DNA of 39,652 nt from Rhodovibrionaceae bacterium (GTDB taxonomy: Bacteria; Pseudomonadota; Alphaproteobacteria; Kiloniellales; DSM-21159), in contig JANQPZ010000212.1 in assembly GCA_028285215.1 (NCBI GenBank), forward strand, positions 1-39,652, given 5' to 3'. Positions 1-6,118 of the stretch are shown piece after piece. The notes under the pieces are model-generated. The model was not told the origin of the DNA. It ran no database searches and saw only the letters and a program-made list of their open reading frames with translations. Position 1 is the stretch's first letter. Each line of letters starts with the position of its first letter. A program made the position numbers and the translations under genes.

Positions 1-315
1 AGTCGCCGGCCGCGCCGCAAGACCGCTGCTGCGGCCGAGTCTGCTGCGCCCGAGTCTGCTTCGTCCGAGTCTGCTGCGTCCGACAGTCTTGCGCCGGCAC
101 CGGACAGCGAATCCCTGCCCGTCGAACGTCAGCCTGAGCCTGTGCCTGAGCCGGACCGGACGGTCGCTGCGATCCCATCGTCAGCCTCATCGGTGATCGA
201 GAGCGATCGCACGCCCGAGCCGGTGGCAGCGGGAGAACCGGAGGTGGCCGACGAAGAGCCCCCGAAGGAGAGCGGTCCGAAGCGTCGCGGCTGGTGGAAC
301 CGCATCGTCGGCTAG
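1..315 (+). CDS. rne: Ribonuclease E, C-terminal end (partial)
   Basis: Frame 1 is open from the window edge to TAG at 313-315, giving about 104 residues of low-complexity Pro/Glu/Ala/Ser sequence. This is typical of the disordered C-terminal scaffold of RNase E, the endonuclease that organises the RNA degradosome. It ends in a basic stretch followed by GWWNRIVG. From family knowledge, a C-terminal GWW motif in Caulobacter RNase E is the docking peptide for polynucleotide phosphorylase, and the motif sits at the same place here. The catalytic S1 and RNase E/G domains lie outside the window, so the identity rests on the tail and on context. An ESAAP-type pentapeptide repeat lies at 37-96. No clear terminator is visible before the convergent gene that ends at 382. 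Confidence 0.8.
   Translation, partial: SRRPRRKTAAAAESAAPESASSESAASDSLAPAPDSESLPVERQPEPVPEPDRTVAAIPSSASSVIESDRTPEPVAAGEPEVADEEPPKESGPKRRGWWNRIVG
37..96 (+). repeat. 15-bp in-frame tandem repeat in rne tail
   Basis: Three 15-nt units (gagtctgct plus six variable bases) run from 37 to 81, and a degenerate fourth unit runs to 96. They encode ESAAP, ESASS, ESAAS and DSLAP. The repeat stays in frame and lies in the disordered RNase E tail, so copy number could vary without damaging the enzyme. Confidence 0.8.
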
Positions 316-381: not shown

Positions 382-996
382 TCAGCAGTCCGTGCGCAGC
401 ATGGCGGACGCGGCCCGGCGGAGGATCACGACGGCCTCGGCAGCGCAAAGAGCGACCCTGGTGCCATGACCTGCGCTGATCTCAACTTGCTTCGGTCGAA
501 GGTCTCGGCCGCCGCTTAGGGCATTGACGGCGCCGCCGCTCTCGACCGTCAGCTCGAGCCGGCGCGTTTCGCCCGAGAGTTCGATGCGTGCGTCGCTCTC
601 GACCTGCAGGGTCAGTCGCTCCCCATCGAGCGCACAGGGCGGCAGAGTCACGCGTGCGCCCGTGGTGGCCGTCACGTGTCGCAGAGGCCGGTCGACCGTC
701 AACAGCAGACGCATGCGGTCGGGATGCACGTGTCGGTCGAAGTCTCGCCGGAAGTGTAGCTCGGCCAGTCGCCCGCCGTCCGGTTGGGCGACGACCTGCA
801 GATCGAGATAGTTCTCGGCCAGGATGGGGGGTTCCGCCTCGACTGACGCAGATGGACGATCTCCGCAGGCCAGCACGACCGTCATCGCCGTATCGACCCG
901 CAGCGCGTCGAAAGACTCGAGAGAGCGGTTCTGAGCAGTCGCGGCTGTCGCCGCCGCGCAAAGGACGGTGACGACTGCCGCGAGCTGCGATCTCAC
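382..996 (-). CDS. Secreted DUF2807 (GIN-domain) protein
   Basis: A 204-residue protein with a GTG start at 996, chosen because it overlaps the TGA of the upstream aminotransferase (GTGA) and is followed directly by a signal peptide: a basic N-terminus, a hydrophobic Ala/Val stretch and an ATAQ cleavage site. The mature part is a beta-rich repeat resembling DUF2807 (the putative auto-transporter adhesin head, or GIN, domain), with strand motifs such as FDALRV, LTLQVES and LELTVESGGAV. Members are envelope or periplasmic and have no defined biochemical role. A short basic, Cys-ending tail follows. It is the last gene of a three-gene minus-strand run with the aminotransferase and the GGT-like lipoprotein. 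The domain call is moderate; secretion is well supported. Confidence 0.65.
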   Translation of the reverse strand: MRSQLAAVVTVLCAAATAATAQNRSLESFDALRVDTAMTVVLACGDRPSASVEAEPPILAENYLDLQVVAQPDGGRLAELHFRRDFDRHVHPDRMRLLLTVDRPLRHVTATTGARVTLPPCALDGERLTLQVESDARIELSGETRRLELTVESGGAVNALSGGRDLRPKQVEISAGHGTRVALCAAEAVVILRRAASAMLRTDC

Positions 997-2147
997 CCGC
1001 CGGCTCCGGCGAAAGCGATCAGCCGGTCGCAGGCGGCGCGCATATCGCCTTCGGAGCCGGCGAAGGAGAAGCGCACGAAGCGATGGCCGCGCGCGGGGTC
1101 GAAATCGACACCAGGCGTGAGCGCGACGCCTGTTTCCTTCAGGATGCGCGTACAGAGAGCAGGGCTGTCGTTGGTCAGGCGGCTGGCGTCGGCATAGAGG
1201 TAGAAGGCGCCGTCGGCCGGTGCCAGCCGTTCGAAGCCGGCGTGGGGAAGCCGCTCCAGCAACAGGCCGCGGTTCCGTGCATAGGCGGCAACGCGAGCGT
1301 CGAGTTCGGGCCGGCAGTCGAAGGCGGCCACCGCTGCATGCTGGGACAGTGTGGGCGCGGCGACGAAGAAGTTCTGGGCCAGGCACTCCACAGGTCGCAC
1401 GAGGTCTTCCGGCAGCACCATCCAGCCCAGTCGCCAGCCGGTCATGCAGAAGTACTTCGAAAAGGAATTGATGACGATCGCCGTGTCGGTCAGTTCCAAA
1501 GCTGAGGTCGCGCGCTCCTCGTAGGTGATGCCGTGATAGATCTCGTCGGAGACCAGCCGGATGCCTTCGGCTGCACAGTAGTCGACCAAAGCGCGCAGCG
1601 CCGCCCGGTCCAGCACGGTGCCGGTCGGATTGGAAGGGCTGGCGACAATCAAGCCGTCGAGCCGCCCGGCGCCTTGCAGCAGGTCGGGCGTCGGCTGATA
1701 ACGATGCTCCAGGTCGGTTTCCAGCAGCACCGGCTCGACGTCGAGCGCCTGCAGGATGTTGCGGTAGGCGGGATAACCCGGCGCCGCCAGAGCCACCCGA
1801 TCTCCCGGTTCGAAGGCCGCCAGAAAGGCCAGAAGAAAGCCGCCGGACGAGCCCGGCGTGGCGGCAATGCGGGCGGGATCCAGCTCGACGCCGTAAAGTG
1901 CGGCGTAGTGGCCGGCAAGCGCCTGTCGCAGCTCCGGCAATCCAAAGGCATCCGAATAGCCGATCAGCGAATCGTCGAGCGCTCGCTTGGCGGCATCGAG
2001 CACGGGCTGTGGCGCCTTGGTTGCGGGCTGACCGACCTCCAGATGCAAAACTTCGGAGCCGTCGGCGGCCTGGGCGTTGGCGGCACGCACCACATCCATG
2101 ACGATGAAGGGCGAGATGCGGCCGCGTTGCGCGACCTTCAGGGCCAT
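993..2147 (-). CDS. PLP-dependent class I/II aminotransferase
   Basis: A 384-residue fold-type I aminotransferase, which would be cytoplasmic. Visible hallmarks are ASPSNPTGT with the PLP-contacting Asn at about 173, DEIYHGI with Asp about 201 and Tyr about 204, SFSKYF with the Schiff-base Lys at about 231, and the GWRLGWM phosphate-binding region with its Arg. A C-terminal RFSFAG segment carries the expected carboxylate-binding Arg. The length is normal. The amino-donor specificity cannot be read from the sequence; the subgroup looks like aspartate/alanine-type enzymes. The gene starts 12 nt after the GGT-like gene stops, with a purine-rich GGCGGGAC upstream of the ATG, and overlaps the DUF2807 gene by 4 nt. 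The three genes are therefore probably cotranscribed. Confidence 0.85.
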   Translation of the reverse strand: MALKVAQRGRISPFIVMDVVRAANAQAADGSEVLHLEVGQPATKAPQPVLDAAKRALDDSLIGYSDAFGLPELRQALAGHYAALYGVELDPARIAATPGSSGGFLLAFLAAFEPGDRVALAAPGYPAYRNILQALDVEPVLLETDLEHRYQPTPDLLQGAGRLDGLIVASPSNPTGTVLDRAALRALVDYCAAEGIRLVSDEIYHGITYEERATSALELTDTAIVINSFSKYFCMTGWRLGWMVLPEDLVRPVECLAQNFFVAAPTLSQHAAVAAFDCRPELDARVAAYARNRGLLLERLPHAGFERLAPADGAFYLYADASRLTNDSPALCTRILKETGVALTPGVDFDPARGHRFVRFSFAGSEGDMRAACDRLIAFAGAGG

Positions 2148-2159
2148 TGTCCCGCCCGC

Positions 2160-3827
2160 CTACTGTGCCCGTTCGCCCAGGCCGAAGCCGCGCGGGTCGG
2201 CGGCGACGGTGCAGGTGGCCTGGTCGTCCTGCCGCAGACCAAGCGGGCAGACAAAGGCGTTGACCAGCCCCACGTCCGCGCCGCGCCGCAGAGGAACGCC
2301 GCCGAAGGTCTGAGACACTTCGGAAAGGTCCAGGCTATCCTCGGCGACAATGCCGCCGCCTTGCCAGACCAGGCGCGGTGCCTGCAGGCTTGGACGCGCC
2401 TCGGCGTTCTCCTCGTTCAAGCGCTGAAGCGCTTGCGCCAAGTGCTGAAAGGCCGCCTCGCCGCCCCCGGCCGAGACGGCTGTGTCCAGCCGCCCGGTGT
2501 CCGGATCGGCCACCAGCGCCACCGCCAGCGGGATGCTGTTGTTGCTGGCTGCCGTCGGCGGCGCAGGCAAGACGGTGCCCAGCCCGTCGGCCACCCGGCC
2601 CGAGCCGAACAGGTTGTTGAGCGTAAAGCTGCAGGCCACGGCGTTGCCCCGACGGTCGCCTGTCACGAAGCCTGCAGCGAAGGGCGCGGCGTTGCTGCTG
2701 GTTGCCGGAGGCAAAGGCGCAGAAGCGATCTCCTGAATCGATTCCTGTGACAGAAGGATCTGCGGCTCCGCGATCGGCAGACCGTCGGGTCCGACCCAGA
2801 CGCGGCGCGCGGCCAGCGCTTTCAGCCCGGCCTCGGCCGTTATCCGCGCCTGACGGGCCGGGACCGCGTCGATCCAGTTCGCCCGCTCCAGCAATTGCCA
2901 CATCTGTCCCGTCGCGACCCCGGCACTGCTGCGCGGGGGCGGCAGCAGCAGCAGGCTGGCCCCCAGCGGAATTTCGATGGGGGCCAGATACTCGGCTCTG
3001 GCGTCGCGAATCTCGGCCGGATCCATGGCGATGCCGGCCGCCGCTGCGGCTTCCGCATAGCGGCTGGCGAAACTGGGCGTGTGCAGATGACCTCCGCCTT
3101 GTGCACGAAGGCCGCCCAGGACGGAGGAGAGCTCGAGGTTGCGAAGCCGTTGGCCCGACTCGATCCATCGACCGCTGTCGGTCTGGAACAGGGCGGCCAG
3201 GTTCGGATCGCGGGCGACGACACCGCGCGCAGCCTCCAGATCGCGGGCGAAAGCGCGGCTGGAGATGAAGCCGAAGCGTGCAAGGTTCTCGGCAGGCGCG
3301 ACCAGCTCTTCCCAGCGCAGCGTTCCGTAGCGCGCGTGCAGCAACGCCATGGCTCTGGCCAGCCGGGGCGGCACGGCGCCATCGGCCGCGGGGACGGGGG
3401 GGAACATCAGCGCATCGGCCAAGCCGTCGGCGTCGCTCCAAACCAGACAGGCGCCGCCGCCGCCCAGGCTGACCCGCGACGGCAAGGTGACGGTCATGGC
3501 CAGAGCCATCGCTACGGCCGCGTCGGCGGCCGAGCCGTTGTTGCCAAGAACGTCGCGTCCGATCACGGTGGCATTGGGTTCGTCGGCGGCGACCACGCCG
3601 GCAAACCCTTCAACCGCGACCAGCAGGCCGCTATTCTGTTCGTCGGCGCAGCCGGCCAGCAGCAGGCCGCAGAGGCCCGCCGCAAAAGCGCCACGAAACC
3701 GCGATTTTCTGCCCCGTGGGCCACGGGTGCTTCGCTTCGCCGCCGCAGGGCCCGGAGAGCGCGATTTCGCGCGAAGCGATCCTGCAGTAGGGTCGTTCCG
3801 CCAGGACACAACTGCATGGAACAGCAT
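2160..3827 (-). CDS. GGT-fold lipoprotein, probably catalytically dead
   Basis: A 555-residue protein of the gamma-glutamyltransferase (Ntn-hydrolase) fold. GNNGSAADAAVAMALA and SLGGGGACLVW match the conserved large-subunit motifs, and GNAV followed by TLNNLFGSG matches the start of the small subunit. A lipobox (LLAGC) predicts membrane anchoring. In active GGTs the segment before GNAV begins TTH, and the first Thr is the autoprocessing nucleophile. Here the aligned residues are Ala-Ala (codons at 2673-2678). The NNxMDDF and SSMSPT substrate motifs are also absent, so processing and catalysis are unlikely. The ATG at 3827 puts about 50 residues before the lipobox. No ATG, GTG or TTG lies closer; GTG at 3809 is the only alternative. 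That leader crosses a GC-rich repeat-like stretch, so the true start is uncertain. Confidence 0.75.
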   Translation of the reverse strand: MLFHAVVSWRNDPTAGSLRAKSRSPGPAAAKRSTRGPRGRKSRFRGAFAAGLCGLLLAGCADEQNSGLLVAVEGFAGVVAADEPNATVIGRDVLGNNGSAADAAVAMALAMTVTLPSRVSLGGGGACLVWSDADGLADALMFPPVPAADGAVPPRLARAMALLHARYGTLRWEELVAPAENLARFGFISSRAFARDLEAARGVVARDPNLAALFQTDSGRWIESGQRLRNLELSSVLGGLRAQGGGHLHTPSFASRYAEAAAAAGIAMDPAEIRDARAEYLAPIEIPLGASLLLLPPPRSSAGVATGQMWQLLERANWIDAVPARQARITAEAGLKALAARRVWVGPDGLPIAEPQILLSQESIQEIASAPLPPATSSNAAPFAAGFVTGDRRGNAVACSFTLNNLFGSGRVADGLGTVLPAPPTAASNNSIPLAVALVADPDTGRLDTAVSAGGGEAAFQHLAQALQRLNEENAEARPSLQAPRLVWQGGGIVAEDSLDLSEVSQTFGGVPLRRGADVGLVNAFVCPLGLRQDDQATCTVAADPRGFGLGERAQ

Positions 3828-3852: not shown

Positions 3853-5274
3853 ATGCCAGCACGCGATGCAGCCGTACCGGCATCGGCCGCCGGTCCGTCG
3901 CCGAAGAGGTCTTTCGGGCTGCGGGTCGCTGCGCTGTTCGTCGCAGCGGTGGTTCTGCTCTCCAGTGGACCGCTCGCGGCACAGCGGGGCGGACTCCAGC
4001 TCATCCGCGACGCGGAAATCGAAAACACCATACGGATCTACGCCACCCCCTTGTTTCAGGCCGCCGGGCTGAGCCCGAGCGCTATCGACGTGTACTTGAT
4101 CGCAGACGACTCCCTCAACGCCTTCGTGACCCAAGGGGCGCGCATGTTCCTGCATACCGGCTTTCTGATGGCGTCGGAAACGCCCCTGCAAACCCTGGGC
4201 GTGATCGCACACGAAACCGGCCATCTTGCGGCGGGCCACTATATCGGGCGGCGCGACGAGATCGAGACCGCCGGCATGACGGCGGCGGCCAGCAGCTTGC
4301 TGGCCATTCTCGCGGGTATCGCGACCGGAGACGGCCGGGTTGCTGCGGCGGTCAACCGTGGCGGCCAGGACATCGCCCTGCGCAGCCTGCTTGCCTTCAC
4401 GCGCGGGCAAGAGCAGGCCGCCGATCAGGCGGCGGTCTCCTATCTGCGCGCCACCAGCGTCAGTCCCGAAGGATTGCTGGAGTTCTTTCGCATCTTGGAG
4501 GACCAGGAGGTTCTGCTGTCCGCTCAACAGGACCCCTATCTGCGCACCCACCCCCTGACTGCCGATCGTATCTCCTTCCTGGAGGGGGCCGTTTCCGAGT
4601 CTCCCTATACGGGCCAGCCGATCCCGGCCGATCTGCAGGAACGCCATCAGCGCATGCGCGCCAAGCTGGCTGGGTTCCTGCGCACGCCGCAACAGGTCTA
4701 TCAGCTGTTCCCGCAAGACGACGACAGCCTGCCGGCGCGTTACGCACACGCGATCAGCGCCTTTAAACAAGGGTTTCTCGAGCAAGCGCTGGAACTGCTC
4801 GACGGCCTGATCGCCGAGCGGCCGAACGATCCCTATTTCCATGAGCTGCGCGGCCAGATGCTGCTGGAGAACCAACTGGTGGCGGAAGCTTTGCCGGAGT
4901 ACGAAAAGGCGGTGGCGCTGCTGCCGCGCGACCCGCAGCTGCGTCTGCGCCTTGCCCAGGTGCAAGTGGAACTGGCGACCGAAGAAACCTTTCGCGCGGC
5001 TCTGGAGAACCTCACGACCGTCGTGGCGCACGAGCCCAACAATGCCAGTGCCTGGCGCTTGTCCGCCATTGCGCATGGGCGACTTGGCAACCAGGGGATG
5101 ACCGCCCTGTCCATGGCCGAGTACAATTACGCCCGCCGCAACTGGCGTGATGCCACGGGCCAGGCGGAGAGGGCCAAGACATTGCTGGAAGAGGGGACCT
5201 CCGGATGGCTGCGGGCTTCCGATCTTGCCGAGGTCGCCGGGCGCGAGGCCGAGCGGGAACGTGATCGTGAATAG
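3853..5274 (+). CDS. M48-family periplasmic metalloprotease with TPR-like C-terminus (BepA-like)
   Basis: About 473 residues. An N-terminal basic region and hydrophobic segment (LRVAALFVAAVVLL, then PLAAQ) form a signal peptide. The protease domain carries the zinc motif HETGH (His at about 120) and a downstream EQAADQAA helix supplying the third ligand. The C-terminal third holds TPR-like helical repeats (a YAHAISAFKQGFLEQAL-type unit, then FHELRGQMLLENQLVAEAL), the architecture of BepA/YfgC, which degrades or assembles outer-membrane proteins such as LptD. An in-frame ATG at 3826 is an alternative start. The gene diverges from the GGT-like gene with almost no spacer and is followed at about 75 nt by a DsbA-like gene, consistent with envelope protein quality control. 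Confidence 0.85.
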   Translation: MPARDAAVPASAAGPSPKRSFGLRVAALFVAAVVLLSSGPLAAQRGGLQLIRDAEIENTIRIYATPLFQAAGLSPSAIDVYLIADDSLNAFVTQGARMFLHTGFLMASETPLQTLGVIAHETGHLAAGHYIGRRDEIETAGMTAAASSLLAILAGIATGDGRVAAAVNRGGQDIALRSLLAFTRGQEQAADQAAVSYLRATSVSPEGLLEFFRILEDQEVLLSAQQDPYLRTHPLTADRISFLEGAVSESPYTGQPIPADLQERHQRMRAKLAGFLRTPQQVYQLFPQDDDSLPARYAHAISAFKQGFLEQALELLDGLIAERPNDPYFHELRGQMLLENQLVAEALPEYEKAVALLPRDPQLRLRLAQVQVELATEETFRAALENLTTVVAHEPNNASAWRLSAIAHGRLGNQGMTALSMAEYNYARRNWRDATGQAERAKTLLEEGTSGWLRASDLAEVAGREAERERDRE

Positions 5275-5350: not shown

Positions 5351-6118
5351 ATGGCGAAAGCCGGATCCCTCCTGGCCGCCCTGTTGTTGGCGGCCGGTGT
5401 TCTGCTTCCCTCCGCGACGGCGCAAGCTCAGGACGCGACGGCAGATGCCGCGCTCAGCGACGCGGAGCAGGCGGCGGTGCGTGCGCTCGTGCGCGAGACG
5501 CTGCTGGAGAACCCGGAAATCCTGATCGAGGCCTTGCAGCTCTATGAGCAGCGCCAGCTTCAGGCGGAAGCGGAGCGCCAGAGCGAGGCGCTGGTTGCCC
5601 ACAGGGCGGCGCTGGAGAACAGTCCCGGCGTTCCGATCATCGGCAATCCCGACGGGGATGTCGTGATCGTGGAGTTCTTCGATTACAACTGCCCCTATTG
5701 CCGTCAGGTGGCGGAACCGCTGCGCCGTGCCGTCGAGGCCGACGGAAACCTGAAGGTGGTCATGAAAGAATGGCCGATTCTCGGTCCTGAAAGCTACTTT
5801 GCGGCCCGCGCGGCCTTGGCAGCGCATCAGCAGGACCGCTACGAAGATCTCCACTTCGCCTTGATGGAACGTGCCGGCAAACTGACCCAGGAGCAAGTCA
5901 TGGCCGTCGCCGAAGGTCTTGGGCTCGACATGGCCCGTCTGCAGGCGGACATGCGCAGTCCGGAGATCGATGCAGCCCTGCAGCGGACCTACGATCTGGC
6001 CGAGGCCCTGGGGATCAACGGCACACCGGCCTTCGTGGTCGCCGACGAAATCCTGCCGGGCGCCGTCACCATGTCGCGCTTGCAGCAGGCCGTGACTCAG
6101 GCGCGCGAAGGCAGCTGA
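5351..6118 (+). CDS. DsbA-family thiol:disulfide oxidoreductase
   Basis: A 255-residue protein. The chosen ATG has an AGAGGA ribosome site about 10 nt upstream and begins directly with a signal peptide (MAKAGSLLAALLLAAG, then TAQAQ). ATG 5321, with AGGA upstream, is an alternative. The mature protein has a helical N-terminal segment, then a thioredoxin fold with VEFFDYNCPYC (Cys 114 and Cys 117, a CPYC site) and the cis-Pro loop GTPAF. This matches the ScsC/Com1-like DsbA group common in alphaproteobacteria, which act as periplasmic thiol oxidases or disulfide isomerases. Gene order with the preceding M48 protease suggests a joint role in folding and quality control of exported proteins. Confidence 0.9.
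   Translation: MAKAGSLLAALLLAAGVLLPSATAQAQDATADAALSDAEQAAVRALVRETLLENPEILIEALQLYEQRQLQAEAERQSEALVAHRAALENSPGVPIIGNPDGDVVIVEFFDYNCPYCRQVAEPLRRAVEADGNLKVVMKEWPILGPESYFAARAALAAHQQDRYEDLHFALMERAGKLTQEQVMAVAEGLGLDMARLQADMRSPEIDAALQRTYDLAEALGINGTPAFVVADEILPGAVTMSRLQQAVTQAREGS

Follow-up and report, generated by a model that had tools for sequence, protein, structure and literature searches.

A gamma-glutamyltranspeptidase-like lipoprotein family of Alphaproteobacteria that rarely keeps the catalytic threonine and is probably non-catalytic

What does a gamma-glutamyltranspeptidase (GGT) fold do once its catalytic threonine has gone? The question is raised by a gene at the start of contig JANQPZ010000212.1 of a Rhodovibrionaceae bacterium (assembly GCA_028285215.1, positions 1 to 39,652; this whole stretch of 39,652 nucleotides (nt) is referred to as the window). 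The gene lies on the reverse strand at 2160–3827, starting at ATG 3827 or GTG 3809, and is assigned to a GGT-fold lipoprotein by Pfam PF01019, an AlphaFold model and its place in a single clade. An earlier, sequence-only reading of the window had described a dead GGT-fold lipoprotein in an operon with an aminotransferase and a secreted DUF2807 protein. Judged from sequence comparison and the predicted structure, the product is likely to be a non-catalytic periplasmic lipoprotein pseudoenzyme descended from GGT.

The protein matched the GGT superfamily with its N-terminal nucleophile (Ntn)-type fold (PF01019, 136.3 bits, cut-off 27). The equivalog model for the enzyme itself, TIGR00066 (MEROPS T03), was missed widely, with 120.5 bits against a cut-off of 357.85. 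At the N-terminus of the small subunit, where the GGT enzyme carries its catalytic Thr, the window protein has Ala384. Ala384-Ala385 (2673–2678, reverse strand, codons GCT GCA) replaces the nucleophile pair Thr391-Thr392 of Escherichia coli GGT; the position was located by its distance upstream of the D-x-x-G-N-A-V-A block in the alignment with PDB 2e0w and by a 122-sequence alignment. The gamma-glutamyl pocket residues R114, E/Q430, D433 and S462-S463 are P, P, A, I and P, respectively. The Ala-Ala pair and the absence of NNxMDDF and SSMSPT motifs, both reported in the sequence-only reading, were confirmed.

These losses extend to the family. The alignment comprised 84 family members (two of them, L098 and L125, being one genome met twice) and 38 canonical GGTs. 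Thr occupies the Thr391 position in 7 of 84 family members against 38 of 38 canonical sequences, the remainder being mainly Ser (27), Gly (25) and Ala (18). R114 is kept in 4/84 versus 37/38, D433 in 10/84 versus 37/38 and T407 in 6/84 versus 38/38; S462, present in all 38 canonical GGTs, is replaced in most family members, and E/Q430 (35/38) does not figure among the family residues listed. No Ser or Thr is conserved family-wide among the 84 members at the nucleophile site or within five positions of it, so the search for a substitute nucleophile at or near the processing position came out in favor of the earlier reading. Furthermore, the segment preceding the old scissile bond is mostly lost in 12 of 84 members and in none of the 38 canonical GGTs. 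These short members (L088, L090, L091, L108, L115, L129, L131, L134, L229, L238, L243 and L247) are spread over several tree branches. According to a review (PMC8062742), E. coli GGT loses both self-processing and activity through T391A and is weakened in both by T391S; mutation of T407 leads to poor maturation.

The structure prediction called for by the earlier reading returned a GGT fold of high confidence. The AlphaFold model of the mature protein, obtained with a 52-row alignment, had a predicted local distance difference test score (pLDDT) of 91.6 and a predicted template modeling score (pTM) of 0.93. Its best PDB match was the uncleaved E. coli GGT T391A precursor 2e0w (Z 46.6 over 459 residues, 2.7 Å, 26% identity), followed among solved structures by the Bacillus licheniformis GGT T399A precursor mutant 4y23 (Z 43.9). 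Since the best matches are uncleaved precursor mutants, the protein resembles a GGT precursor that naturally stays uncut. It shares with 2e0w the fold and Ala at position 391, and the family mostly keeps Thr409, Asn411 and Gly483-Gly484. Unlike 2e0w, it is natural rather than engineered, is a lipoprotein and carries four new cysteines; R114, E/Q430, D433, S462-S463 and T407 are changed as well in its family. We propose that the protein would neither cleave itself nor transfer glutamyl groups, and would remain a single chain in the uncleaved precursor fold.

All four of these cysteines are invariant in the family (84/84 each): Cys127 (3447–3449), Cys399 (2631–2633), Cys527 (2247–2249) and Cys539 (2211–2213), all on the reverse strand. 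Cys127 occurs in 0/38 canonical GGTs, and Cys at the other three positions is not among the commonest canonical residues. The four residues probably form two disulfides that would lock the fold, most simply C127–C399 and C527–C539. Other positions conserved in the family and foreign to canonical GGT are E83 (78/84), P84 (82/84), R158 (79/84), E180 (80/84), S190 (79/84), R191 (76/84) and R241 (80/84), which may mark a new interface.

The lipobox noted earlier, LLAGC, was also verified. Its cysteine, Cys60 (3648–3650, reverse strand), is kept in relatives, in 60/60 rows of the first alignment and in 79/84 of the extended one; the other five rows, for which fragments were used, are probably cut short there. 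A lipobox Cys behind a signal peptide predicts lipidation. Either of two start codons may be used in the window: GTG 3809 and ATG 3827, the in-frame starts closest to the lipid Cys, lie 53 and 59 codons upstream of it, while in most relatives the start is at the normal signal-peptide distance. In the interval 3715–3827, the TTG start of the sister genome (L064), 22 codons before the lipid Cys, appears as CGG in the window, leaving an unusually long presequence. The mature protein would be anchored in the membrane through its lipidated Cys and would most likely act in the envelope as a binding or scaffold protein.

The GGT-like lipoprotein is no local mutant but a family spread across much of Alphaproteobacteria. 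Almost all of the 39 relatives compared at order level carry a homolog, as do 57 of 289 genomes sampled across the class (E < 1e-40). The family forms one clade with a Shimodaira–Hasegawa-like approximate likelihood ratio test (SH-aLRT) support of 100, apart from canonical GGTs and from the GGT paralogs of the source and sister genomes. With 84 aligned members in a single clade and Thr rare among them, the dead GGT-fold lipoprotein is evidently kept as such in relatives. All named members belong to Alphaproteobacteria: Rhodospirillales metagenome-assembled genomes, Reyranella, Roseomonas, Neoroseomonas, Falsiroseomonas and Elioraea. Fifteen named members came from an alignment-based scan of genome contigs that used the generic GGT motif only and in which most matches were canonical GGTs; the same type of scan with the single window protein as query gave no match. 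In a phylum search, E-value alone did not separate the family from canonical GGT. The matches starting at the lipid Cys were all from Alphaproteobacteria, although scoring took in no more than the three best candidates of each genome, so that absence elsewhere is unproven. The source genome encodes five further GGT paralogs, at least one of them with the canonical Thr, so other genes can supply GGT activity.

Several points weigh against the pseudoenzyme reading. Ser or Thr occupies the nucleophile site in 34/84 members, and Thr409 (60/84), Asn411 (58/84), Gly483 (68/84) and Gly484 (66/84) mostly remain, so some branches could keep activity. Extremophile GGTs work without the Arg and the Ser-Ser (PMC8062742), and losing those residues alone therefore proves nothing. 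The gene is also missing in some lineages and is dispensable there. The Ser or Thr at the nucleophile site and the kept residues would fit a protein that has remained enzymatic, as an amidase or acylase acting unprocessed with another nucleophile, either that Ser/Thr in the lineages concerned or a conserved residue elsewhere. We consider this unlikely: the window and its genus carry Ala, Gly or Ala is found in 43/84 members, and the missing family-wide Ser/Thr and the vanished pre-cleavage segment of the twelve short members speak against it as well.

The lineages without the gene bear on whether it is a decaying relic without function. The ratio of nonsynonymous to synonymous substitution rates (dN/dS), computed for the window against two genomes of its genus, came to 0.17 and 0.31 (GGT-like gene), 0.09–0.10 (aminotransferase), 0.08–0.13 (neighboring M48 metalloprotease) and 0.31–0.34 (DUF2807 gene); the estimate is rough, with dS high (0.86–0.89), which is a further point against the pseudoenzyme interpretation. 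The GGT-like gene is under purifying selection, yet evolves faster than most of its neighbors. Decay would agree with this faster rate relative to the aminotransferase and M48 genes and with absence of the gene from many lineages. However, the frame is open in nearly all members, five cysteines including the lipid Cys are conserved, and R158, E180, S190, R191 and R241 are maintained across a deep, class-wide clade. On the basis of dN/dS and conservation, the relic explanation was rejected as extremely improbable.

Downstream of the GGT-like gene on the reverse strand lies the second gene of the operon (993–2147), encoding a class I/II pyridoxal phosphate (PLP)-dependent aminotransferase, identified by PF00155 (187.5 bits) and the Schiff-base Lys motif NSFSKYFCMTGWRLGW. 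The third gene (382–996, reverse strand) encodes a secreted DUF2807 protein from a GTG start overlapping the aminotransferase stop; its match to the DUF2807/head GIN domain is weak, just above the cut-off (PF10988, 29.2 bits, cut-off 24.2). All three gene identities proposed earlier agreed with Pfam (G_glu_transpept 136 bits, Aminotran_1_2 187 bits, DUF2807 29 bits), and the 12-nt gap at 2148–2159 between the first two genes and the 4-nt overlap at 993–996 (GTGA) between the last two were both found in place.

The description of the three genes as a fixed operon stood only in part when the same genes were sought in relatives. The aminotransferase link is usual: of 74 testable loci, 66 have its gene downstream of the GGT-like gene in the same orientation and no more than 190 nt away, with gaps mostly of 1–40 nt. 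One of these aminotransferases, at L077, has an identity of only 39%. The DUF2807 gene is found at the locus only within the genus, other DUF2807 matches in the order lying elsewhere in the genomes. In the remaining 8 of 74 loci the GGT-like gene has no neighboring aminotransferase. This is the arrangement in L088, L090 and L091, from the window's own taxonomic family, where the GGT-like gene stands beside the M48 gene; in genome G007 the two are adjacent on contig C4 (L088), and the aminotransferase is on contig C12. A comparison anchored on the aminotransferase covered 40 further genomes, none with a strong GGT match. A diverged GGT-like lipoprotein occurred at the same place in 16 of the 40 genomes. 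Approximately 21 lack the gene cleanly and have the M48 and aminotransferase genes directly next to each other (L214–L220, L222, L223, L226–L228, L231, L236, L237, L242, L244, L246, L248, L251 and L253). The M48-DsbA/aminotransferase neighborhood thus exists without the GGT-like gene, and its members do not need it.

On the earlier reading, the lipoprotein would bind ligands of the amino-acid or glutathione type, as a receptor working with the aminotransferase. The operon-like spacing to the aminotransferase in most loci is consistent with such a role, but the aminotransferase occurs without the GGT-like gene, and the converse, at the frequencies given above. By eye, no export signal is seen in the aminotransferase, which would occupy another compartment. 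Binding through the old pocket was not borne out: R114, E/Q430, D433 and S462, the substrate contacts of GGT, are gone in nearly all members, and with these gamma-glutamyl pocket residues lost such binding is unsupported. We therefore regard the receptor role as very unlikely.

The most constant neighbor is instead a divergent gene on the forward strand (3853–5274) for a BepA-like M48 metalloprotease with tetratricopeptide repeats (TPRs). It adjoins the GGT-like gene in 57 of 58 loci, including loci without an aminotransferase next door. The M48 and TPR domains are present by Pfam; against the BepA equivalog NF052400 the product scored 125.8 bits (cut-off 570), so by sequence it is BepA-like only. 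It is followed by a gene for a DsbA-like thiol oxidoreductase with a ScsC_N domain (5351–6118, forward strand; Pfam DSBA, 95 bits), and a DsbA-like gene is near the GGT-like gene in 45/58 loci. The adjacent BepA-like protease is the first candidate for a partner of the pseudoenzyme. As a special case of the pseudoenzyme reading, the protein might be a lipoprotein that specifically assists in assembling the outer membrane or in its quality control, acting with the BepA-like protease and receiving its disulfides from DsbA; the lipobox and four cysteines would fit a periplasmic disulfide client, and BepA of E. coli is active in LptD assembly (PMC8423444). On the other hand, M48 and DsbA genes are co-located about as often without the GGT-like gene, and the neighborhood may simply be ancestral, which would account for the M48 link just as well. 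For the same reason, the DsbA-like protein was rejected as a specific partner. We rate this accessory role as rather unlikely in so specific a form. The same low expectation applies to its broadest version, in which a class-wide GGT pseudoenzyme would have become an accessory of the BepA-like protease branch, with the Ntn-hydrolase fold now serving as a scaffold for binding.

The non-catalytic lipoprotein can be set beside several known proteins of the superfamily. CapD (PDB 3g9k) has the GGT-superfamily fold, its large chain matching the model over 278 residues (Z 26.6); it is an autoprocessed, active enzyme, whereas the window protein lacks the nucleophile. The GGT-related protein of Thermoplasma (2i3o) and a Bacillus halodurans protein named as cephalosporin acylase (2nlz) match the full-length fold with Z 41–42; to our knowledge, neither is known as a lipoprotein. 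A GGT relative with active-site mutations is also found in Aphidius ervi venom, where the third gamma-GT was judged possibly non-functional (PMC4035087), but that is a eukaryotic venom protein with no lipid anchor or operon. Pseudoenzymes and a mutated wasp-venom GGT are therefore already known; for a bacterial GGT pseudoenzyme lipoprotein family or its gene cluster, we found no relevant report in the open-access literature, subscription papers not being covered.

Members of the family match the GGT profile and are thus likely annotated as gamma-glutamyltransferase, though the catalytic center is missing. The four-Cys and lipobox signature separates them cleanly from GGT and would correct this annotation. 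As an old, naturally occurring equivalent of the T391A precursor made in the laboratory, the family suggests that an uncleaved GGT fold can serve another use, to which the conserved neighborhood offers a direct genetic route.

The aminotransferase is much better conserved than the GGT-like gene (approximately 50–87% versus 30–78%). Its solved relative, PDB 3h14 (450 bits over the full length), is deposited only as 'Aminotransferase, classes I and II', and the entry does not name a substrate. At the edge of the window, an open frame rich in Ala, Pro and Glu (1–315, forward strand) converges with the DUF2807 gene; it ends in KRRGWWNRIVG and looks by eye like a C-terminus of ribonuclease E/G type.

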